From the NCBI GenBank assembly GCA_021734245.1, contig JAIPJH010000003.1, positions 1 through 64,000 of the forward strand: a stretch of 64,000 bases of DNA, written 5' to 3'. Both the position numbers and the translations under genes were made by a program. Under the pieces are notes generated by a model that did not search any database, had not been told where the DNA came from, and was given only the letters and a program-made list of their open reading frames with translations. The DNA is from Candidatus Cloacimonadota bacterium. GTDB taxonomy: Bacteria > Cloacimonadota > Cloacimonadia > Cloacimonadales > TCS61. The number at the start of each line of letters is the position of its first letter. Within the stretch, counting starts at the first letter, position 1. This document shows positions 1-51,832 of this stretch, piece after piece.

Positions 1-2498
1 GGAAAGCCCAGCAGCACAAAAGTTCCGATCGGCTCATTTTTGATAGCACATGCTTCTCCGATATATTGGCTGCCGCCGCTGGCTTCAAAATTATAAATTC
101 CATTTGCCGCATCTGGGAAAATAGCTACATAAGGAAGTGTTCCGCTGAAGGCAGGATTCAATTTATCAGAATCGATCAGAAGTTCAGGATAATCGTCGGA
201 ACTGGCACTTGTAAATTCCCACAATGAAACTAAATAGGTATCATCGATATTCAAGAAATCGGTTTTAAAGAAATCAGGAATTTCATCTGCAGTTTTCCAG
301 CCGGAAATTATAAGGTTTCCACCAGCTGCCAGATAGCAGCCCAGTTTATTGATGTTATTCTCAATGAAATGCTGTGCCAGATCGTCATCGTGCCAGATGA
401 TGGTTGAGTAATCTGCCAGAGTTTCCAGATCTGGAGAGCCGTCATCTTCATAATCCCAACTGGTGTATGAAGAAGGCATTACAGCTTCATAGAAATCATC
501 AACTTCAGCGTCATCAGGATTTCCCACTGTACCGTTTCCGTCTTTTGTTTCATCGATAACCAGAACTCCCTGATTCATTGGAAAATTGATAGGAGTTGCT
601 TCATAAACCTGGGAAAATGGAGTTTCAAAACCATTGTCCTTTGTTGCCTTGAGCTTGTAATAATATGTTGTTCCATTTACCACATCATCATCCACGTAAC
701 TGGTTTCTGTTATCAAATCCTGATTGATCTGGATGAACGGATCATCTGGGTTTTCTGCACGATAAAGATTGTAGCCGTCTATTCCAACTTCCGGCCAGAA
801 TTCTTCCCAGAAAACAATAACTTCTCCATCTGCCGAATAGGCATTGTTAATACTTACTCCACGCAAAGTGCTGGAAGTGGAAAGCACCCAGTTATTGGGA
901 TCAAATTCCACATTATCATAAACCGGAACATTCGTAATGGCGATCGTTTCCAGAGGTACATCTGGAGCAGCCTGAACCAGAACAGAATCCTGTCCTGCAG
1001 CACCGTAAATGTGAACTGGAATATCGATGTAAAAATCGGTATCGCTGTTGGAATAAGTCTGCACATAAGTCATTATTCTGGGAACTGCCAGATAAGGATT
1101 GAAAAAATAAGTATATTCACAGGAAGGCATTCCGCTGCCGTAGATCCACTGATCGAAAAATTGGTCAAAATCTTCGCCTGTAACGTTTTCACAAACTTGC
1201 TGGAAATCTTCTGTTATCACATTGGAATGCATAAAATCATTGAAAAAAGTCTGCATGATCTGCCAGAAAAGATCATCTCCCACTTTCAAGCGGAGCATGT
1301 GCAGTACCGAAGCTGCTTTTTCATAAGTAACCGGCGTGAAATACTGATTGGGAGTTGCCGGATCGTAAATCGTGTAGGGGGTAGTGCCCGCCCAGTTTTT
1401 ATAATAATTCTGAATACTGATCTCAATGTAGTTCACCATTTCATCAAATCCCTGCCATTGTTCCATGTAAACCGCTTCCGAATAAGTTGCGAAACCTTCG
1501 GAAAGCCACACGTCTTTCCAGGTAAGATGGGTAAGACAATCTCCATACCACTGATGTGCCAATTCGTGACAAATCGTCATTTCATGTCCGTGATTTCCTG
1601 TGATATTTGTGCTGCCCAGAGTTGTCATTGTTTGATGCTCCATAGCGCTGTAGGTGGCAAAATTGGTAACCGCATTTCCATATTTTTCAAAAGGATAAGG
1701 ACCGTATTTATCGCTGTAAACCTGCATCATAAACGGCAGGTTGGAAAAATCTTCCGTAGCACTTCCTATCAGGTTGGAAGGCACAAAATTCTGGATCGGA
1801 ATTGTTCCAAAAGTATCAAGCAATTCCAGATAAGACTGGCAAACCAGTGAAACCAGATAAGTTGCCATCGGATAATCGCAATCCCAGTGATGAGTTTTAG
1901 TTCCGTTGCCGTTATCCACGATCGAGGTGCGAATTCCGTTGCTGGCCACCAGCCAGTCGTCGCGGCAGGTAATGTGCAGATCGGTGACAGCTTTATCCCA
2001 GGGATGATCGTAGCAGGGCCACCAGAAACGCGAGGCATTTGGATCGGAAATCGTGAAAATATTGGAATTTCCAAAATACATTCCCAAACCATTCCAGGTG
2101 GGATAACCTTCATAATCTACCTGCGTGGTAAATGTATCTCCGGCATTCATCGTTCCCAGTTGAATTGTTATCAGATCGTTGCTGTAATCATAACTTGCTG
2201 CATTCCCATCCAATAGAACCGCATTTACAGTCATATCCGTCAGCTCATAAGAAATTTCTGTGATCGTTTCTTCTGCGGTTACAGTTGCTATTACACTGCC
2301 CCAGATATAATCATTCGCATCATCGATCTCTATCGTGATATCATAATTGGTGATATCAAAACCATGTGCCGAATCTGCTCGCGTCGTTTCTGTGTAAATT
2401 GTCATGTTCTGATGTCGGTGATTTGGCACATAAGTGGGAGTTGAAAACAATATCGTCGATACAAAAATTAATACAAAACAAAAAACTATTTTTTTCAT
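1..2498 (-). CDS. Secreted M1-family metallo-aminopeptidase with Fn3-like domain (C-terminus cut by window edge)
   Basis: The frame starts at the ATG at 2498 behind a strong TAGGAGGAAT ribosome site and stays open to base 1, so the 3' end is missing. The N-terminus is a signal peptide (MKKIVFCFVLIFVSTILFS). The gluzincin motif HELAHQWYG lies at residues 311-319, followed by the third zinc ligand in WLSEGFATY, the usual HEXXH-x18-E spacing; a SAMEHQT motif about 25 residues earlier matches the M1 exopeptidase GAMEN region. After the peptidase part there is a fibronectin III-like segment (YNLYRAENPDD) and a domain containing GVLVIDETKDG that I do not recognise. The family removes N-terminal residues from peptides; here it is presumably exported to periplasm or surface. 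A C-terminal sorting domain is expected but lies outside the window. Confidence 0.93.
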   Translation of the reverse strand, partial: MKKIVFCFVLIFVSTILFSTPTYVPNHRHQNMTIYTETTRADSAHGFDITNYDITIEIDDANDYIWGSVIATVTAEETITEISYELTDMTVNAVLLDGNAASYDYSNDLITIQLGTMNAGDTFTTQVDYEGYPTWNGLGMYFGNSNIFTISDPNASRFWWPCYDHPWDKAVTDLHITCRDDWLVASNGIRTSIVDNGNGTKTHHWDCDYPMATYLVSLVCQSYLELLDTFGTIPIQNFVPSNLIGSATEDFSNLPFMMQVYSDKYGPYPFEKYGNAVTNFATYSAMEHQTMTTLGSTNITGNHGHEMTICHELAHQWYGDCLTHLTWKDVWLSEGFATYSEAVYMEQWQGFDEMVNYIEISIQNYYKNWAGTTPYTIYDPATPNQYFTPVTYEKAASVLHMLRLKVGDDLFWQIMQTFFNDFMHSNVITEDFQQVCENVTGEDFDQFFDQWIYGSGMPSCEYTYFFNPYLAVPRIMTYVQTYSNSDTDFYIDIPVHIYGAAGQDSVLVQAAPDVPLETIAITNVPVYDNVEFDPNNWVLSTSSTLRGVSINNAYSADGEVIVFWEEFWPEVGIDGYNLYRAENPDDPFIQINQDLITETSYVDDDVVNGTTYYYKLKATKDNGFETPFSQVYEATPINFPMNQGVLVIDETKDGNGTVGNPDDAEVDDFYEAVMPSSYTSWDYEDDGSPDLETLADYSTIIWHDDDLAQHFIENNINKLGCYLAAGGNLIISGWKTADEIPDFFKTDFLNIDDTYLVSLWEFTSASSDDYPELLIDSDKLNPAFSGTLPYVAIFPDAANGIYNFEASGGSQYIGEACAIKNEPIGTFVLLGF

Positions 2499-5411: not shown

Positions 5412-5498
5412 GCCGAAGTGGTGAAATTGGTAGACGCAGTGGACTCAAAATCCTCCGAGCATTTGCTCGTGCCGGTTCGAGTCCGGCCTTCGGCACCA
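5412..5498 (+). tRNA. tRNA-Leu (anticodon CAA)
   Basis: An 87-nt class II tRNA including an encoded CCA. The acceptor arms GCCGAAG and CTTCGGC pair perfectly, the D-loop has GGTAGACGCAG, the anticodon loop is CTCAAAA (CAA, reads UUG), a long variable arm (CCGAGCATTTGCTCG) marks it as leucine type, and the T arm is GCCGG-TTCGAGT-CCGGC. One U-U opposition is predicted in the anticodon stem. It closely resembles bacterial tRNA-Leu(CAA) genes. Confidence 0.97.
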
Positions 5499-5599
5499 TT
5501 TATGAAGAAATATTTGGAGGGTCTTATAAATCTTTGCTAGGGCAACATTCTGATTGCAAAATTTCTGTAAGTATTAAATTGTATTTCTGGAGGATTTAA

Positions 5600-6814
5600 A
5601 TGAAAACTAAAATAATTTTATTCGCCCTTGTCTCACTGATTCTGATACCGGTAACGGTAGGTGCGATTTCTGAAGCTGCGGTTATATATTTATTGATCGA
5701 ACCGGGCTCAAGATCGGCTGGAATGGGACAGGCTTATGTTGCACAAGCAGACGATGGTTTTGCCGGATATTGGAATCCTGGTGCAATGGCCTTTAATAGA
5801 AAAAATCAATTCGCTTCCATGTACTCCAACTGGCTGGGAGAAGTTTTCCCGGATATTTACTATTTCCATGCAGCCTGGAACAACTACTATGAAGATATTG
5901 GAAATCTTGGAGTAAATGCGACTTATATGTCATACGGTGAACAGGAAAGAACCGATTTGAATGGTAACTCTGACGGTACATTTAGAAGTTATGATATCAG
6001 CGGTGCGATATCTTATGGATATCAAACCAGTCCTAAAACAGGAATCGGGATCACATTCAAATTCATCTTCAGTGATCTGGCTCCCAAAGGAACAGGTTCT
6101 ACCGAGCAGGATGAAAACGGACAGGGAATTTCTTATGCCTTTGATTTTGGAGTAAAGCATATCGGTGTCGATTTTGGCCAGGTCCTCGTTTCTCCTTATA
6201 ATGGTGCGATTGCTGCCTACAATGGAATTGGATCTCTGGTTGGTTTTAAACCTGCAAGTTACAGCGATTACAGCATTCCTGTAGATAAACTGGATTTTGG
6301 TTTGAACCTGCAGAATGTAGGACCGAACATTACTTATATCAATGAATCTCAGGCAGATCCGCTGCCAATGAACTGGCGCATGGGTTTTTCTTATAGAGTA
6401 ATCGAAAGCAAATATAATAAACTTCGAATTAATGCTGATATGAACAAAATGCTGGCAAATGATGATCCGGTATACCAGAGACTTTTCACAGCCTGGACTG
6501 ATGACTTTAACAACCGAACCAACGACAGTGGAGAAACGATCGATGATTTTGCTTCATTGAATAATTTCGTTAATTCGATCGAGATGAAAGAGATAATCTG
6601 GTGTTTTGGTGCAGAATATGAATATCTCGATCTGCTTTCTCTACGTGGCGGATATTACCTGGACCGTGCCGGATCGGTTGAAGGTTTAGCGTTTGGATTT
6701 GGAGTTCATTATCTACTGAATAAATCTTATCTTATCGGCATCGATTACGCTTTCCAACCTGGTGGTGAACTACAGGATTATAACCAGACTCTTTCCGTTA
6801 AAGTAGAATTCTAA
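5600..6814 (+). CDS. PorV/PorQ-family outer-membrane barrel protein
   Basis: A 404-residue protein with a signal peptide (about residues 1-22) and the family hallmark SRSAGMGQAYVAQADDG...YWNPGAMAF just after it. Alternating beta-strand patterns and a C-terminal aromatic-rich strand ending SVKVEF fit an outer-membrane beta-barrel of the FadL-like PorV/PorQ group. In Bacteroidota PorV works in the type IX system, where it shuttles cargo to the attachment complex; family membership is what I see, the exact role is inferred. The start follows TGGAGGA at 5588-5594. It lies 13 nt upstream of an M6 peptidase carrying a C-terminal sorting-type domain, which supports an export link. Two other family members occur at 21663-22688 and 37595-38569. 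Confidence 0.8.
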   Translation: MKTKIILFALVSLILIPVTVGAISEAAVIYLLIEPGSRSAGMGQAYVAQADDGFAGYWNPGAMAFNRKNQFASMYSNWLGEVFPDIYYFHAAWNNYYEDIGNLGVNATYMSYGEQERTDLNGNSDGTFRSYDISGAISYGYQTSPKTGIGITFKFIFSDLAPKGTGSTEQDENGQGISYAFDFGVKHIGVDFGQVLVSPYNGAIAAYNGIGSLVGFKPASYSDYSIPVDKLDFGLNLQNVGPNITYINESQADPLPMNWRMGFSYRVIESKYNKLRINADMNKMLANDDPVYQRLFTAWTDDFNNRTNDSGETIDDFASLNNFVNSIEMKEIIWCFGAEYEYLDLLSLRGGYYLDRAGSVEGLAFGFGVHYLLNKSYLIGIDYAFQPGGELQDYNQTLSVKVEF

Positions 6815-42943: not shown

Positions 42944-45256
42944 ATGAAAAAAATAATTATATTGATTTTAGTGAGCCTGTTTCTGACAGGCTTACTTTTT
43001 AGTAATACGTTGAACATCGTGCAGTATGAACCCGATAGTGTATTTAACGGCTCCAATCGGGATGATACTGTAATTTTTATAGAAGATTTTGAAAACGGAA
43101 TTCCACTGAACTGGAGTTCCGAAGACGTAACCGATCCCGGCTCCTACTGGTTTACAAGTCCTTACAACGCTTTTGGCGAGGAAGGCAGTTCCTGGCGCAT
43201 GGCCGACACCTTTACAGGCAATAACGGCGGTTATCTGGACGGCTGGTATCAAGTTTTAGATACACCGATAATCAGCTTACCAGGTTCGGGAAACATGGTT
43301 CTCAGTTTCGAGCAATATCGCGCGATCGAGGAACCAGGTAATTACGAAAATTTCGATGGCTGGGATGGCTTGAACGTTCGTATCCGTCTTGCAGGTCAGG
43401 ATTATGAAAATGCCGAAATTTTGACCAATTGTAATCCAGCTTACAATTGCAACAGCTTATATGGATTTGGTGAAATTCATGGTGAAGATCCCGACGGAGA
43501 TCCCGGAATTCCCGGCTGGGGCGGATCTACCGCATGGCAAAGCACCGAAGTAGTGATCCCCACAGAATATCATGGTGAAAATGTTATCATCAGTTTTGCA
43601 TTTGCGTCCGACGAAAACACTTCCACTGCCACCAATCCCGATTTTTCCGGTATCTTTATCGATGAAATAGATGTAGCTGGTGTTTTTTATAACGATGGCG
43701 AATCAACTGCCGGTTTCAACGGCTTCACCAATACACCGATCGGCGGCGATCTGTGGCATGCATTTACGCAAAATGGAAATTCTGCCGCTGGATGCTTTGA
43801 TGTTGAAACTAATTTATACAATTCCAACATGAAAAACTATCTGACAACAGGCTCAGTATTTCTTCCTGCCGATTCAGAGATCTATGTAGATTTGCTATTG
43901 CAAACAGCTCTTGATGACTCGCTCTTTCCCGATTGTGATTATTTTTCGGTGGAAGTGAGTTATTATGAAAATGACGAGTGGTCAAATTGGAATTCCATTT
44001 CCAATCCAACTGGTGACCCGAATCTGCTGAATGTGGTTTTTACCGGTTCAGTTGATAATTGGACACTTTTATCGGAAGGTTGGGCTGGTTACAACGACCT
44101 TTCTGCGATCGCCGGACAGTATGCAAAATTCCGATTGGGATTTCATTCCAACGGAAACACGCCTTCAGGTTTCGGTATCAAAATCGATGATTTCAAAATT
44201 ACTGCTTCTTCTTATGCTGGAATGCCGCCAAGTGATTTGGTTGCTATTCTTTTAAATGATTATTATGTACAACTTTATTGGGGAATGGCAGGAACAGCAC
44301 CTCTGGAATTCAACATTTATCGGAAATTAGAAAATAATGAATTTGAATTTATCGCTTCCAGTACAGATGTGAATTTTATCGATAATGATCCATTTGAAAA
44401 TGAAATTAATATCTATGCTGTTACTGCTGTTTTTGCTGAGGGAGAATCTGATTTTTCCAATCTTGAGCGGATCTTCGTTCCCAACCAATCTGCAGAAATT
44501 CTGCAACATGATGACGGTACGGTTGAAACTGGAATACTGCTTTTGAATTTACAAAAAGCTGCTGTTTTATTTGAACCAGATTTTTCATCTGGAAATGTCT
44601 CATTCACTCATTTACAAATTTATCTCGATTCCATTTCAGATGGGCCGCTCGTTATTTCTGCCTGGCAGAATGACAATGACCTTCCCGATACTGAATTGAC
44701 CGGATTTCCGATCAGCATAGATGCTGATGAGCTCCAACTTGGCTGGAATACAATTGAAATTCCGTCAAACGCTGTTCAGGAATTCAGTTCCGGCAGCTTC
44801 TTTGCCGGTTATATTCAATTTGTAAATTCACCTCAGATCGGTCTGGATGAAGATTCTTCCGGTTTCAGCTACGATAATGCAAATGGCTGGAACATGATCT
44901 CTTCGGGTGAATTGATGATAAGAACAATTGTTGATACCGCTCCTGTAAATCCTACAAGTAATGATCCATTAATTCCTGTTGATGATATTCAACTTTCCAA
45001 TTATCCGAATCCCTTCAATCCCACTACAACGATCAGTTTTAATCTGGTTTCAGAAAAATTTGTGGAACTGGATATTTACAATACGAAGGGGCAATTGGTT
45101 CGCAATCTTATTAAGCAAAATTTACCAGCAGGAAATCAGCAGATTATCTGGCAGGGAAAAAATAACTTTGGGCAAGCGGTTGGTAGTGGTGTATATTATT
45201 ATAAGATAAGAATTGAGAATATAGAAAAAAATAAGAAGATGTTGTTGATGAAATAA
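42944..45256 (+). CDS. Secreted multidomain protein with T9SS-type sorting domain
   Basis: 770 residues. Signal peptide, then a MAM/jelly-roll-like domain (IEDFENGIPLNWSSED, MVLSFEQYRAI, GIFIDEIDVAG), a second similar domain around 300-400, a fibronectin III-like domain (PPSDLVAILLNDYYVQLYWGMAG), a further beta domain, and a C-terminal sorting domain with NYPNPFNPTTTISFNL, NTKGQLVRNLIKQ and a final KNKKMLLMK. No catalytic motif is visible, so a binding or structural role on the surface is more likely than hydrolysis. It begins 47 nt after gap and 27 nt before the C10 peptidase gene. Confidence 0.8.
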   Translation: MKKIIILILVSLFLTGLLFSNTLNIVQYEPDSVFNGSNRDDTVIFIEDFENGIPLNWSSEDVTDPGSYWFTSPYNAFGEEGSSWRMADTFTGNNGGYLDGWYQVLDTPIISLPGSGNMVLSFEQYRAIEEPGNYENFDGWDGLNVRIRLAGQDYENAEILTNCNPAYNCNSLYGFGEIHGEDPDGDPGIPGWGGSTAWQSTEVVIPTEYHGENVIISFAFASDENTSTATNPDFSGIFIDEIDVAGVFYNDGESTAGFNGFTNTPIGGDLWHAFTQNGNSAAGCFDVETNLYNSNMKNYLTTGSVFLPADSEIYVDLLLQTALDDSLFPDCDYFSVEVSYYENDEWSNWNSISNPTGDPNLLNVVFTGSVDNWTLLSEGWAGYNDLSAIAGQYAKFRLGFHSNGNTPSGFGIKIDDFKITASSYAGMPPSDLVAILLNDYYVQLYWGMAGTAPLEFNIYRKLENNEFEFIASSTDVNFIDNDPFENEINIYAVTAVFAEGESDFSNLERIFVPNQSAEILQHDDGTVETGILLLNLQKAAVLFEPDFSSGNVSFTHLQIYLDSISDGPLVISAWQNDNDLPDTELTGFPISIDADELQLGWNTIEIPSNAVQEFSSGSFFAGYIQFVNSPQIGLDEDSSGFSYDNANGWNMISSGELMIRTIVDTAPVNPTSNDPLIPVDDIQLSNYPNPFNPTTTISFNLVSEKFVELDIYNTKGQLVRNLIKQNLPAGNQQIIWQGKNNFGQAVGSGVYYYKIRIENIEKNKKMLLMK

Positions 45257-45283: not shown

Positions 45284-47734
45284 ATGAAAAAATTTGTTAT
45301 AGCATTCGTTATAACTTTGTTATTAGGTTCAATGTTTGCAGTCAGGATCGATGAAGATTCTGCACTTCAAACAGCAACTCAGCATTTACGAGCCTGGGAT
45401 GAAACTTCACGAAATATTGAAAGTACCCATTATATGCTCGATGATGATGATACAATGCTGGCTTATGTTTACGATCTTGAACCTGAAGGATTTATAATTG
45501 TTTCTACCGATACCGATATAAAACCTGTGGTCGGCTATTCTTTCAGAAACGACTTCACTGTAGAAGACAAAGATAGAAATGTGGGATATCTTTTCGTGGA
45601 AGCAGATATGCGTTCGCGTTTGGCAGCAATTCCTTATACAAATCCCGATATAATTCAGGCTAACAACGACCTCTGGCAGCAATATCAGAACGGCAGCATC
45701 AGTTTTGCCAACAGCCGCGATACAGTTTGGCCTCCGGCTGGTTATTCAGCTACAGAAGGCTGGGTGGAAACTGAGTGGGATCAATCTCCTTCTCCTTACA
45801 ATACAATGTGCCCGATCGATCCGCAAAATGGCGGTCGTAGTGTAACTGGTTGTGTTGCTACAGTTATTGCCCAAATCCTGCATTATCATCGTTATATCGG
45901 ATCGGTAAGCTTCAATGACAATGATGACTATTATTCCAGTTATACCAGTCCGGCAATTCACATCGATGATGATCATGTAGCTCTTAGTTTCCCCTCGTTC
46001 CCGGAATTGAACGACCATCTTACCGATGCCATGATCGCCTATCAACTTGGCTATCCTATCACAAACGATATGATCGCTGCGATCAATTTTGCTTCCGGTA
46101 TTGCAGTTCAAATGGGTTACAGTTCAAACGCTTCAGGTGCCTATTCTTCCGACGTTCATACAGCTTTTTTGAATAAATTTGGTTATGATACCGCTACATA
46201 CGTAGGCTATACAAATGCAGCTTTTTACAACGATCTCAAGATCGACATGATGGAAGCCCGTCCTGTTTATTTTGGCATCCTTTCCAATGGTGGCAGCGGA
46301 CACGCTATTATTTGTGACGGTTGGAACGAAGACACAGATTACTTCCACCTGAACATGGGTTGGGGCGGCTATCAAAACGGCTGGTATGATATTCCATTGA
46401 ACATGCCTTCCGGATATAATCAAATTCACTCAGCAATCCGAAACATCGAAGGCGGAACTGTACCATTTGAAATGACTGGCATGGTGTTTGCCAACAATGC
46501 GCCATTGGATCAAACTTTCCTTACTTTGGAAGGTCCACGCTACTACGAATTCGACATTGATGATCCAAACGGATATTTCGGCACGGATTATATGCATGCC
46601 GGAACTTATGTGGCAACTGCCACAATTGAATTGGATGATGGTGGTTATTACTACAAAACTGAAACTGTTCAAATCGATGAAAATAATAACACTGTAATTA
46701 TTTATCTGGATGATTTTACAACTTTATCGGGATCAGTTACAGCTCCTGTAAGTGCAGAAAATGCTCATGTGAATGTTTATCAGAATGATGTTCTTATTAC
46801 TTCTGGTTTGGCAGATGCTTCAGGTAATTTCTCTATTCCGGGTGTAATGCCGGGAACATATCAGGCCGTAGCAAGTTTGGCAGGCAGCTATTTTGAAGAA
46901 CAGTTCTATGAAGTAACTGCTACAAATCAGAATATTGATTTCAATCTGGAAGAATATCCCAACGATCACGTATTGCATTTTGCTGGCGATCCCACTGATA
47001 AATTCCAATTCCTCAGCGATATGAGTTGTGGTATCAGGCTGGCTGAAGATGACATTGCAGATTATGATGGTGATGCAGTAGCAAAAGTAAGTTTCATTGC
47101 TCCATTCAATCCTGCTGATGGTGAGATCTATGCTCAGATATGGAAAGGTAATCTGCTTGTTTCTGAAAAGCAGGTTACAGATTTTACAGATGGTGAATGG
47201 GCAGATGCTACTTTAGAAGATTTTGCTGTTGTCGATCCTGATGCTGAATATTATGTAGGATATCGAATTCATTCTCTGGGTGGAACCATTCCTGCAGCCT
47301 GGCACGATGCAGGTCCTATGATCACAGGAAAAGGTGGATATGTTCGTACAACAGGTTGGATTCCTCTACCGGGAGCTTTTGATTTTAACCTCTGCATCAA
47401 GGGAACTATCATAACTCAAACTCTAGGTTCAGATAATAACACAGCAAACATATTCGCAAATGATCTTGGAAATAACTATCCAAATCCATTCAACCCGACC
47501 ACAACAATCAATTACAGTCTTGCTGAAGACAGTTTTGTAGAACTTGAAATATACAATGTAAAAGGACAGCTGGTAAAAACTCTGGTGGCAAATGAACAAA
47601 CAGCAGGTCAACATTCAGTAGAATGGAACGGAAAAGATAACCTTGAAAAAGATGTATCTTCCGGAATTTATTTCTACAAAATGCGTGCCGGTGGAAGATA
47701 TACAAGTACAAGAAAAATGATATTACTTAAATAG
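45284..47734 (+). CDS. Secreted C10-family cysteine peptidase (streptopain-like) with sorting domain
   Basis: 816 residues: signal peptide; a SpeB-type propeptide at about 20-140 (LEPEGFIIVSTDTDIKPVVGYS); the C10 catalytic domain with Cys190 in SVTGCVATVIAQILHYH and His340 in GSGHAIICDGWNED, followed by LNMGWGGYQNGWYDIP. After it come a carboxypeptidase-regulatory-like beta domain (LSGSVTAPVSAENAHVNVYQND), another beta domain, and the sorting domain NYPNPFNPTTTINYSLAED ending GGRYTSTRKMILLK. C10 enzymes are secreted endopeptidases activated by loss of the propeptide. TAGGAGG precedes the start and an intrinsic terminator follows. Confidence 0.93.
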   Translation: MKKFVIAFVITLLLGSMFAVRIDEDSALQTATQHLRAWDETSRNIESTHYMLDDDDTMLAYVYDLEPEGFIIVSTDTDIKPVVGYSFRNDFTVEDKDRNVGYLFVEADMRSRLAAIPYTNPDIIQANNDLWQQYQNGSISFANSRDTVWPPAGYSATEGWVETEWDQSPSPYNTMCPIDPQNGGRSVTGCVATVIAQILHYHRYIGSVSFNDNDDYYSSYTSPAIHIDDDHVALSFPSFPELNDHLTDAMIAYQLGYPITNDMIAAINFASGIAVQMGYSSNASGAYSSDVHTAFLNKFGYDTATYVGYTNAAFYNDLKIDMMEARPVYFGILSNGGSGHAIICDGWNEDTDYFHLNMGWGGYQNGWYDIPLNMPSGYNQIHSAIRNIEGGTVPFEMTGMVFANNAPLDQTFLTLEGPRYYEFDIDDPNGYFGTDYMHAGTYVATATIELDDGGYYYKTETVQIDENNNTVIIYLDDFTTLSGSVTAPVSAENAHVNVYQNDVLITSGLADASGNFSIPGVMPGTYQAVASLAGSYFEEQFYEVTATNQNIDFNLEEYPNDHVLHFAGDPTDKFQFLSDMSCGIRLAEDDIADYDGDAVAKVSFIAPFNPADGEIYAQIWKGNLLVSEKQVTDFTDGEWADATLEDFAVVDPDAEYYVGYRIHSLGGTIPAAWHDAGPMITGKGGYVRTTGWIPLPGAFDFNLCIKGTIITQTLGSDNNTANIFANDLGNNYPNPFNPTTTINYSLAEDSFVELEIYNVKGQLVKTLVANEQTAGQHSVEWNGKDNLEKDVSSGIYFYKMRAGGRYTSTRKMILLK

Positions 47735-47790: not shown

Positions 47791-47796
47791 TCGAAA

Positions 47797-47979
47797 CTTC
47801 GGATTGTAACCTCTGGTTTCATCCGAATGTTTAGAACCAAAAAAAACTGTCATATGAACGGACTCGAGGTATATGACAATTCTTAAATGAATATACCACA
47901 CCATTTCCTTCGTCAAGCTCAGGGTGACTTTAGCTTCACATTCGAAATATCTCGCGGGATTTCTTTCAGCTTTACTTCT
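47797..47979 (+). repeat. Dispersed intergenic repeat segments, copy B
   Basis: Just after the terminator, a TTCGGATTG...CATCCGAATGTT hairpin element (47797-47832) matches the repeat arrays at 51593-51832. At 47956-47979 a 24-nt run is identical to 37465-37488. The rest of the 47735-48247 gap holds no supported gene; a minus-strand frame over 47752-48054 is made of this repeat material. Confidence 0.65.
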
Positions 47980-48247: not shown

Positions 48248-51200
48248 ATGAAGAAAATTATTATGTTTTTAACGATTTGTCTGACCTTTTCAATGGTAGC
48301 AGAAGTACCTGCCTATGATGCAGATAAATATTATGAGAAGGTTATTGTAGCCTGTTTTGAATGGGATGCCATCGGTAATCGCGAGTCTGTTTTAGATTAT
48401 GAAATCACCGATGGAATCGTGACTACAGGAATATCAAGTTTTGATGCGCTTGCTCAGGAATTTCGTTTTACTGATGTACAGCAAACCATCGATTTTGTAA
48501 AAGATCTGGATTGGAATGATAATGGAATTTATCCTCGCTGTATTTATCGAATTTACCTGGAGCATAATGATAATATCGAAGAAGCAATAGCAGAATTACA
48601 AAAAGATCCCAATATTATTTTTGCTGAATACGATCCCATATTGCGAATTGCGTACGAACCGAATGATCCATCTTATTCCAATCAATGGCATCATGAATAC
48701 ATAAAGAGTGAACTTGCCTGGGATTATACTACCGGAGATGATGAGATCGTAATTGGAATTGTCGATTCAGGAATAATGTGGAATCATAATGACCTGCAGG
48801 ATAACATCTGGGTAAACGAAGCAGAATTGAATTCAACTTCAGGTGGAAATCCAATGACCATAAACTGGGCCAATGGAACAGTAAGTGGTGGAAATGGATT
48901 GGATGATGATGGCAATGGCAAGATCGATGATTGTATCGGTTGGAATTTTTATGGATCACAGAGCAACCAATCATATCAAAGTTACGCAGATAATGATCAT
49001 GGAACTCACGTAGCAGGTTGTGCAGGTGCAGTTGGAGATAACTTCATCGGAGTGGTTGGCTCTATTATGAATGTAAAACTTATCTCTTCTCGTCATGCTC
49101 CCACAAATACATCATCCAGTAGCATTTACTATGGAAATAACGGGATTTATTATTGTGCCGATTCTGGCGCTGATATTATTAATTGCAGCTGGGGCGGTTC
49201 CGGTGGTGGAGCAGCTTCTAATACGGCGGTTAATTATGCGGTTGCTCAAGGTTCTATGGTAGTCTGTGCAGCTGGAAACGATGCCCTGGATATTGGAATT
49301 TATCCACATTATCCTGGAAATGCTACAAATGCAGTTTGCGTTGCAGCCACAGGTCCAAACAGCGATCAGAAAGCAAACTTCTCAAATTATGGTGATCCCG
49401 TAGATGTTTCCGCTCCTGGAGATAATATCTATTCCACAATTATTGCCAATAATGGCTACGCTTCTTATGGTGGAACTTCCATGGCTTCTCCAGTTGCTGC
49501 CGGAGTTGCTGCTCTCATCAAAACTTTGCATCCCGATCTTGATCCGATGGCTCTGAAGCAACGGTTGGAAGATACCTGCGATAATATCGATGCTGTTAAT
49601 CCTGATTATGTGGGAATGCTGGGCGCTGGCAGAATAAATTCTTTTACTGGTTGCATGTACGATCTTATTCCCGATCTTCATATTACAGATTACAGCTTCT
49701 TTGAACAAACAGGAGATGGTGACGGCCTGCCAAATCCTGGAGAAATTGTAAATTTGATGTTGGAAATCACAAATACTCCCGACTGGTTTGTGGCTTTTGG
49801 AGTTTCTGCAACCATCAGCACAACAAATCCTGATGTAACATTCCTTTCAGATACAATTACATTCCCAGACTTGACTGGTGGCGATACTGTTTGGAATACA
49901 TCTTCCCCATTCAGCTTTGAAACTCCCAGTGATATTTCATCTTATGAACTTCCTTTAACAATTACTTTCAATGCAAATGACACTTTCGATTATCCCTACG
50001 AAGTTGATAGAGAACTTACAATTGAGTTAACTCTTGTTCAAGCTGGTTGGCCTGTTTCTGTGGGTGGAGCCTCAGCGTCTGCTGGTGTTATTGTCGATTT
50101 GGAAGATGATGGAGATAAAGAAATTATCTATGGCGATCAAATGGGAATGCTGCATGTAATGAATGCAGATGGAACAGAAGTTATTGATGCTATCGATACT
50201 GGTGGAATAATAACCGGAGCAGTTGCTATTGGCAAAATCGATGGTGATGAAATTGAAGATATGGTTATTGCCAATGAAGCAGGACACGTGATCGCTTACG
50301 ATTATAATGGTGGAACGATCTTCGATTATGATTGCGGTGGTTCGATAAAAGGAACTCCCATGATTTCTGATGTTGATGGCGATGGCATAAATGAAGTGGT
50401 AGCAGCTACATTCATTGGTGGTCAGGCTCATGTTATCAAAAATGACGGAACATCATTCGCCAATTTCCCGGCAGCTCTTAGTGGTGGAATGCTCAGTTCT
50501 CCTGCAATCGGAGATTTAAATGCAGATGGAAATATGGATATCGTGATAGCAACTTTGACCGGTTCTCTTGATGTGATCGATACAAGTACGGGAGCACAAC
50601 TTGCGGGTTGGCCTTATGCTTTGGGAATGGGTTCCTGGCACGGACCGATCGTGGCAAACGTAGATTCTGATGATGAACCCGAAGTTCTGGTGGGAACTCT
50701 GGGAAGCATGTTCTTCGTGATAAATCATGATGGAACTCTGCTTTCTGAAACAAACATCGGAAACCAGATCAAAACTTCAATTGTTACATCCGATTTTGAT
50801 AACGATGGAATTGATGATGCAGCATTCGTAACTGCGAATGGTAAAGTGTTTGTTGTTGATAATCAGGGAACACCATTCACCAACTTCCCTGTAGATCTTG
50901 GCGTTAGTGTAGAATCCACTCCGCTTCTGGCAGATATGGACGACAATGGAACACAGGATATTGTTTTTGGTGATAACTCCGGTTATCTTCATTCCATCGA
51001 TATTACGGGTAGTGAAACGGTTGGTTTTCCGGTTAATCTGGGCTCTACAATAAAAACCAGTGCCGCAATTGCCGATACAGATAGTGATGGTGATATCGAA
51101 ATTCTGGTTCCAAATCAAACTGCCTACGTTCTGGTAGATTACAAAAATCCAACTGGATATGTTTCCTGGGCAAATTATAAACGCAATCCGCGCAGAACAG

Positions 51201-51532
51201 GAAATGCCTACGATGCTACAACAGGAACCAATCCACATAATATTCCTACATTGGTTGATATGCTTGGCGGAAACTATCCCAATCCTTTCAATCCAACCAC
51301 GAATATAAATTACAGCCTTGCAGAAGATGGCCTGGTTCAAATCGATATTTTTAACGTGAAAGGACAGCTGGTTAAGCACCTTGTTTCCGAACATCAAAGT
51401 TCAGGAAATCATCTGATTACCTGGAACGGAAAAGATGATAATAACAAATCCGTAGGAAGCGGCATTTATTTCTACAAAATGCGTGCAGGCGGACGTTACA
51501 CAAGTACTCGCAAAATGATAATGCTTAAATAA
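48248..51532 (+). CDS. Secreted S8 subtilisin-like serine peptidase with FG-GAP-type propeller and sorting domain
   Basis: 1094 residues. Signal peptide and propeptide (about 20-140) lead into the S8 domain with the full triad: Asp173 (IGIVDSGI), His251 (DNDHGTHVAGCAG) and Ser411 (GGTSMASPVAAGVAAL). A beta-sandwich (DLIPDLHITDYSF) follows, then from about residue 610 an FG-GAP/VCBS-type propeller of repeated units (VDLEDDGDKEIIYGD, SDVDGDGINEVVAAT, DLNADGNMDIVIATL, ADMDDNGTQDIVFGD). The C-terminus is a T9SS-type domain (NYPNPFNPTTNINYSLAED ... GRYTSTRKMIMLK). It probably degrades proteins at or outside the cell surface. AAGGAG sets the start; terminator downstream. Confidence 0.95.
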   Translation: MKKIIMFLTICLTFSMVAEVPAYDADKYYEKVIVACFEWDAIGNRESVLDYEITDGIVTTGISSFDALAQEFRFTDVQQTIDFVKDLDWNDNGIYPRCIYRIYLEHNDNIEEAIAELQKDPNIIFAEYDPILRIAYEPNDPSYSNQWHHEYIKSELAWDYTTGDDEIVIGIVDSGIMWNHNDLQDNIWVNEAELNSTSGGNPMTINWANGTVSGGNGLDDDGNGKIDDCIGWNFYGSQSNQSYQSYADNDHGTHVAGCAGAVGDNFIGVVGSIMNVKLISSRHAPTNTSSSSIYYGNNGIYYCADSGADIINCSWGGSGGGAASNTAVNYAVAQGSMVVCAAGNDALDIGIYPHYPGNATNAVCVAATGPNSDQKANFSNYGDPVDVSAPGDNIYSTIIANNGYASYGGTSMASPVAAGVAALIKTLHPDLDPMALKQRLEDTCDNIDAVNPDYVGMLGAGRINSFTGCMYDLIPDLHITDYSFFEQTGDGDGLPNPGEIVNLMLEITNTPDWFVAFGVSATISTTNPDVTFLSDTITFPDLTGGDTVWNTSSPFSFETPSDISSYELPLTITFNANDTFDYPYEVDRELTIELTLVQAGWPVSVGGASASAGVIVDLEDDGDKEIIYGDQMGMLHVMNADGTEVIDAIDTGGIITGAVAIGKIDGDEIEDMVIANEAGHVIAYDYNGGTIFDYDCGGSIKGTPMISDVDGDGINEVVAATFIGGQAHVIKNDGTSFANFPAALSGGMLSSPAIGDLNADGNMDIVIATLTGSLDVIDTSTGAQLAGWPYALGMGSWHGPIVANVDSDDEPEVLVGTLGSMFFVINHDGTLLSETNIGNQIKTSIVTSDFDNDGIDDAAFVTANGKVFVVDNQGTPFTNFPVDLGVSVESTPLLADMDDNGTQDIVFGDNSGYLHSIDITGSETVGFPVNLGSTIKTSAAIADTDSDGDIEILVPNQTAYVLVDYKNPTGYVSWANYKRNPRRTGNAYDATTGTNPHNIPTLVDMLGGNYPNPFNPTTNINYSLAEDGLVQIDIFNVKGQLVKHLVSEHQSSGNHLITWNGKDDNNKSVGSGIYFYKMRAGGRYTSTRKMIMLK

Positions 51533-51550
51533 ATTTTAGAATTTAGACTT

Positions 51551-51583
51551 CCCGGTATCAGAAATGGTGCCGGGATTTTTTTT
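51551..51583 (+). terminator. Intrinsic terminator after the S8 peptidase gene
   Basis: CCCGGTATC and GGTGCCGGG pair, with wobbles, around AGAAAT and are followed by eight T. Its loop and right arm are the same as in the terminator after the C10 peptidase gene. Confidence 0.85.
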
Positions 51584-51592
51584 ATGCTAAAC

Positions 51593-51832
51593 TTCGGATT
51601 GTATCCTCTGGATTCATCCGAATGTTTATTATTAATGGAGTAAGTTTTACAACACTCGGAAGAACTTCGTACATTCCGAGGTTCAGAAATTTCGGATTGT
51701 ATCCTCTGGATTCATCCGAATGTTTATTATTAATGGAGTAAGTTTTACAACACTCGGAAGAACTTCGTACATTCCGAGGTTCAGAAACTTCGGATTGTGT
51801 CCTCTGGATTCATCCGAATGTTGAAAAAACAA
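51593..51832 (+). repeat. 98-bp tandem repeat, about 2.4 copies
   Basis: Units begin with TTCGGATTG at 51593, 51691 and 51789, an exact 98-nt period; the first two are complete and nearly identical, the third breaks off after the first hairpin. Each full unit contains two inverted repeats: TTCGGAT...ATCCGAA with an inner ATCC/GGAT, and CTCGGAA-N12-TTCCGAG. The copies abut without spacers, so this is not a CRISPR array. Confidence 0.9.

Follow-up and report, generated by a model that had tools for sequence, protein, structure and literature searches.

The window analysed here, the whole stretch of 64,000 nucleotides from a Candidatus Cloacimonadota bacterium, contains a short array of repeated hairpins behind a subtilase-like gene, and the question raised by this locus is what kind of element is repeated there. 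The original prediction, made from the letters of the window, had offered a small RNA, a mobile palindromic element or a DNA-binding array. The array is very probably a REP/REPIN array of the BIME type, built from an atypical element of a RAYT-associated family and amplified locally. The family most likely represents a branch of the REP elements that has received little study, and not a new small RNA. In its workings it resembles a REP system, and it lies outside the strict GTAG class.

The 98-bp tandem repeat described in the prediction was recovered by Tandem Repeats Finder at 51589-51822, with a period of 98 bp, 2.4 copies and 97% matches; the end previously given, 51832, overshoots this by 10 bases. 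The starts said to be in exact register are located at 51590, 51688 and 51786, with a spacing of exactly 98. The array comprises five palindromes in the orientation + - + - +, separated by gaps that alternate between 24 and 4 nt. Two different hairpins had been assigned to each unit, and both are present, but they are not different modules: one 98-bp unit is a doublet in which the same bulged palindrome occurs twice, in opposite orientations. On its own strand, the element reads 5'-AAC, a 7-nt arm, TGT, a variable tip, TC, the complementary arm, T and GTT. The features of the window that bear on the question are the following:

47795-47831, plus strand: lone dispersed element A, 3' of the terminator of a C10-peptidase-like gene, with a compensatory change in the tip stem (sequence, model match, DNA folding)
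51550-51575, plus strand: intrinsic terminator of the upstream subtilase-like gene, directly before the array and outside the element (terminator scan)
51589-51822, no strand: tandem array with a 98-bp period and the orientation given above (Tandem Repeats Finder, model matches)
51590-51626, plus strand: element A, copy 1, stem TTCGGAT/ATCCGAA, tip ATCC-TCT-GGAT (sequence, model match, DNA folding)
51627-51650, no strand: AT-rich spacer of 24 nt within the doublet (sequence)
51651-51683, minus strand: element B, copy 1, the form of A on the minus strand, stem CTCGGAA/TTCCGAG, tip AC-GAA-GT (model match, DNA folding)
51684-51687, no strand: junction of 4 nt between doublets; other arrays also have junctions of 4-6 nt (sequence)
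51688-51724, plus strand: element A, copy 2, foot AAC changed to AAT (sequence, model match)
51749-51781, minus strand: element B, copy 2 (model match)
51786-51822, plus strand: element A, copy 3, with a G-T pair in the tip (model match)

When folded as DNA, element A (z = -4.0) and the copy at 47795 (z = -3.9) were each equalled by none of 200 shuffles, element B (z = -2.5) by 6 of 200 and the entire 98-bp unit (z = -3.5) by 2 of 200. The half-unit noticed earlier behind the terminator of the C10-peptidase gene does exist, as the copy at 47795-47831, but it is a dispersed single copy and not a truncated unit. Compensatory stem changes between copies, whose search had been proposed, are present: the tip stem ATCC/GGAT at 51590 corresponds to AACC/GGTT at 47795, with both sides changed and pairing kept. 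Among the three array copies no compensatory change was found, the only differences being the C-to-T change that turns the foot of copy 2 into AAT, and an A-to-G change that creates the G-T pair of copy 3.

Both the array and the copy at 47795 lie directly 3' of a terminator-like hairpin with a T run, after a large secreted-protein-like gene, the terminator scan having been run on the array only. The array starts 57 nt past the stop codon of the upstream gene and does not belong to the stop-abutting copies described below. The reading of the array itself as an intrinsic terminator was rejected, since the scan gave only the one upstream.

Two further observations concern the surroundings of the array. 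The large neighbouring genes at 42944-45256, 45284-47734 and 48248-51532 share an NYPNPFNPTT-type C-terminal domain at their ends and include the C10-peptidase-like and subtilase-like ones, names that were taken from reading the translations. Directly 3' of the array, the segment 51830-52060 is another dispersed repeat, with 37 matches in the same genome at E <= 1 (itself included), the best other copy being 86% identical over about 206 nt; pieces of it also flank, left and right, a Y1 transposase gene of this genome (contig C59), and it may be the REP-like repeat of a different RAYT.

Copies, covariation and arrangement of the element

A covariance model was built from 18 elements, which came partly from the genomes then searched and were chosen for their perfect stems. 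The search for further copies that had been suggested returned at least 69 model matches in the window's own genome (among the best 150 candidates per genome), which corresponds to about 70 copies. With these copies and the compensatory change between 51590 and 47795, the refuting condition set in the prediction does not hold. With the same limit of 150 candidates, matches at E <= 0.1 occurred in 18 of 40 genomes, the own one included, that is in 17 of 39 relatives, and three of these 18 (G006, G011 and G038) had one weak match each. As the rows of alignment A1 were preselected for a perfect stem, a covariation count on it is biased, and selection by a pattern of the 5' half was relied on instead as the fair test of covariation. 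This pattern, AACNTCNGANTGT, matched 49 times in the own genome, and twice when reversed. Of the 49 copies, 40 carry a 3' arm of perfect complementarity, with nine stem sequences, and among these 40 copies TC was kept in 37 and TGTT likewise in 37. Some of the remaining nine resemble slightly decayed copies, others chance matches. Three of the seven arm positions and the tip stem exchange by compensation. The view that structure rather than coding is kept was thereby borne out, whereas the free exchange of stem sequences contradicts a DNA-binding array that would rely on a fixed duplex sequence.

Short tips mostly take the form C(GNA)G, which is very stable in single-stranded DNA. Among 47 tips of seven nucleotides, G and A occupied loop positions 1 and 3 in 43, a C-G pair closed the loop in 44, and eight were exactly GCGAAGC. 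In a slightly larger set, 40 of 51 tips combined a complete stem of 2 bp with a GNA loop, and 8 of 11 eight-nucleotide tips had a GNNA loop; neither loop occurred in any of 84 longer tips. As the copies are related, these counts do not represent independent events. In DNA, GNA and GNNA loops are reported to have extraordinary stability, with a melting temperature of 78 C for GCGAAGC (PMC4686876). The GNA tip loop was found only on the AAC...TGTT strand, which fits the strand-specific recognition reported for TnpA-REP (PMC8266576).

A looser pattern scan of a named collection of 84,980 species genomes yielded 50 stretches, each chosen for at least one strict copy, and nearly all labelled Candidatus Cloacimonadota (Tenebribacter included). 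The closest named relative is E21_maxbin.083, of the same genus. The bins labelled 'Armatimonadota' that carry the element probably belong to the same family as the window's genome, with a wrong label. Model matches were also obtained in one Omnitrophota contig (L220) and one Spirochaetales contig (L188), which were kept in the counts and may be misbinned. The former, assigned to Omnitrophota M55B134, carries five alternating elements at 5414-5633, either by horizontal transfer or as a misbinned contig. A pattern match on a Prevotella contig (L203) was dropped because the covariance model did not confirm it. The element pattern occurs, furthermore, in two IMG/VR contigs classed as viral (L300-L303).

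The model recognised 105 elements in the 50 named contigs, 85 of which have a neighbour within 150 nt. The orientation is inverted in 48 of 49 neighbouring pairs, namely 40 (+-) and 8 (-+) pairs, with a single (--) pair. Gaps are mostly 8-28 nt in the (+-) pairs and 4-6 nt in six of the eight (-+) pairs, and a second tandem array of doublets, with a period of 95 bp, is present in L234. The layout is that of REPINs and BIMEs.

Transposase genes beside the element

Y1_Tnp matches were found in 30 of the 40 genomes, and the window's own genome has nine of them. In two relatives, such a gene is flanked by the element. At L116 (G022:C293), elements lie at 641 (+) and 703 (-) to one side of a Y1 gene of 178 aa, and at 1299 (+), 1343 (+, weak) and 1415 (-) to its other side; at L197 (JAQICU010000254.1), four alternating elements lie on each side of the Y1 gene. 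The two RAYT proteins are 72% identical over 177 aa, and their gene neighbourhoods differ, with a hydrogenase region at L197 and other genes at L116 (names from reading translations). No other member of their tight clade was found in 106 genomes of the order, where the next closest proteins reach at most about 50% identity. Both are above the Pfam cut-off for Y1_Tnp, and both match the NCBIfam model of the REP-associated tyrosine transposase (E of 8e-8 and 2e-9), under its 80-bit cut-off. Their HUH motif is NHYH and their tyrosine motif YIHNNP, and an IS200/IS605 transposase (class 1), for which the printed motifs are DH[VI]H and Y[IV]ENQ (PMC6006769), was rejected. A search of solved structures with the L116 RAYT gave no match up to E = 1. 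The left and right 300-nt flanks share a word of at least 16 nt at 54 of 65 distinct RAYT-like ORFs versus 30 of 400 control ORFs at the same loci, which indicates that each RAYT tends to own its repeats. Near L239, elements of the related form ACC ... GGT were seen by eye. The early guess of a mobile palindromic element agrees with the scattered copies, the inverted doublets and the transposase gene flanked in two relatives.

Judged from sequence, the element may be recognised, cleaved and mobilised by a RAYT. The doublet would be a non-autonomous element, whose folded single strand a RAYT of the Y1/HUH family would recognise and whose copies it would disseminate. A RAYT of the L116/L197 type, or a relative of it, would nick and move the element on single-stranded DNA, and would read the invariant feet and the internal loop (AAC/TGTT, TGT/TC) rather than the letters of the stem. 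The local 98-bp copies could have arisen by slippage or recombination after the insertion of one doublet. A more detailed version of this model is put forward tentatively, as possible rather than probable: a RAYT lineage that reads unpaired marks (the AAC/TGTT feet with the bulged T, and the TGT/TC loop) together with strand-specific d(GNA)/(GNNA) tips, while the letters of the stems change in compensating pairs; a single enzyme family could then serve a large number of stem variants with no GTAG guide, and the lineage would insert the element strand-specifically at stop codons.

In the window's own genome the family is possibly passive or mobilised in trans. No element was found there at eight of the nine Y1 loci, flanks up to 1.5 kb included (the ninth, a weak match, was left out), and the three nearest own homologues of the L116/L197 RAYTs, with 46, 39 and 34% identity, are flanked by other palindromes. 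The genome G030 has 38 copies (among the best 150 candidates), yet no Y1_Tnp match at E <= 0.001. This missing linkage, along with the near-identity of the array copies, which slippage explains, would suit a decayed passive repeat, that is, the remains of an old REP-like burst that is now amplified only by local slippage, in a lineage with no living transposase. That 40 of 49 copies, chosen blind to the 3' arm, have perfect arms points however to upkeep or recent spread, and the absence of a linked RAYT is weak evidence because nearly all assemblies are drafts that break at repeats, so that a RAYT gene may be missed. Decay into a passive repeat is considered rather unlikely. The own RAYT paralogues L162, L180 and L056 (contigs C73, C7 and C10) are each ringed by distinct repeated palindromes. 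In the nearest relative, the matching contig begins inside the next gene, and no pair of occupied and empty sites was seen.

Position relative to genes and further rival explanations

Among 42 elements of the own genome, at loci with an ORF cover of 85%, 34 lie between ORFs, 3 overlap an ORF in part and 5 are contained in one, according to a simple heuristic ORF caller. The distance to the stop codon was determined for the 36 of these elements that have a flanking ORF on each side. An element in sense direction behind the 3' end of a gene began no more than 5 nt from the stop codon in 11 of 24 cases, an antisense element in 0 of 20 (Fisher p = 0.0003); for a limit of 15 nt, the counts were 13 of 24 and 0 of 20. 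This asymmetry arises partly because doublets pair a sense element with an antisense one further off, and it may stem either from a preferred site of insertion or from selection acting on mRNA 3' ends. Translation is reported to be affected, and lowered, by E. coli REPs that lie within 15 nt of a stop codon (PMC12306157). That precedent, the intergenic position and the proximity of sense copies to stop codons all speak for a 3'-UTR RNA element or small RNA, whose hairpins would act in the transcript on the mRNA end, on translation of the upstream gene or on termination. The elements, however, are not terminators by the scan, the sole terminator preceding the array; they occur in both orientations relative to genes, in inverted doublets and in linkage with transposase genes; their tip loops are of the DNA type; and an Rfam scan of the window returned one tRNA only, with no match to the element. 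The small-RNA guess is thus weak and an RNA element improbable; a secondary role of the elements in mRNA is conceivable.

The ends of integron attC sites follow the consensus RYYYAAC ... GTTRRRY and pair with each other. Recombination sites of this kind, which are folded single strands with AAC/GTT ends, would account for the AAC and GTT feet, the conserved unpaired bases and the variable stems, and the own genome has a strong integron-integrase match (contig C128, L304, 5.9 kb, positions 529-1530, minus strand, with the match at 535-1479; 442.7 bits against a cut-off of 265). This explanation is nevertheless hardly credible: RYYY-AAC together with GTT-RRRY occurs in 1 of 145 elements; pairing past the feet ends after one or two bases (first base 87 of 145 versus 41.5 in shuffles, second weakly, 55 versus 40.5, then none); the integrase contig has no match to the element model; and inverted doublets and multiples around RAYTs are unlike cassette arrays. 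A simple pattern also gave no recognisable attC sites on the 5.9-kb integrase contig.

Comparison with known systems

REP/RAYT systems have been studied mostly in Proteobacteria, with GTAG as the supposed guide tetranucleotide. The REP/REPIN reading of the array extends such a system to a largely uncultured phylum, by a family without this tetranucleotide. With many covarying stems and unpaired bases that stay constant, the copies represent a natural mutagenesis set for RAYT recognition, and the stop-codon asymmetry a testable rule of insertion or of 3' ends. Among the matches listed from the open-licence literature, no paper was found that links Cloacimonadota to REP or RAYT.

In Pseudomonas fluorescens, 93% of REP doublets are reported to be inverted, and ordered clusters to be tandem repeats of near-identical REPINs (PMC3116915). 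The Cloacimonadota element resembles the REPINs/RAYTs of strain SBW25, as they are described there, in its short palindromes, inverted doublets with short spacers, tandem clusters of near-identical doublets and clusters beside RAYT genes; it differs in the absence of a GTAG foot, in the two-part bulged stem and in belonging to another phylum (PMC3116915). With the REP/BIME elements and TnpA-REP of E. coli it shares the imperfect bulged palindrome, the alternating orientation, the tandem mosaics and the associated Y1/HUH transposase gene (PMC8266576, PMC6006769). Those REPs are described as requiring GTAG and sharing conserved stem positions, whereas here AAC/TGTT feet and compensating stems are found (PMC8266576, PMC6006769). 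No GTAG or GTGG word was present 5' of the palindrome in 142 elements, positions -1 to -4 being mostly A or T, and a classical GTAG REP was rejected on this ground. The CGTC-tagged palindromes (PMC3733652) are likewise short, mostly inverted dimers without GTAG, but no CGTC tag was seen here, and the CGTC group is reported without transposase association.

The nearest described class is TnpA-Y1 subclass 2.6 (RAYT group 5), described mostly from Bacteroidetes, whose members are flanked by 'atypical secondary structures' (PMC6006769); the L116 and L197 proteins are at most possible members. Their HUH motif NHYH departs from the printed NH[LIV]H (PMC6006769). The tyrosine motif YIHNNP, in contrast, fits the printed YIH[QN]NP, the proteins are of similar length, and in both cases atypical palindromes surround the gene and recur at other places in the genome (PMC6006769).
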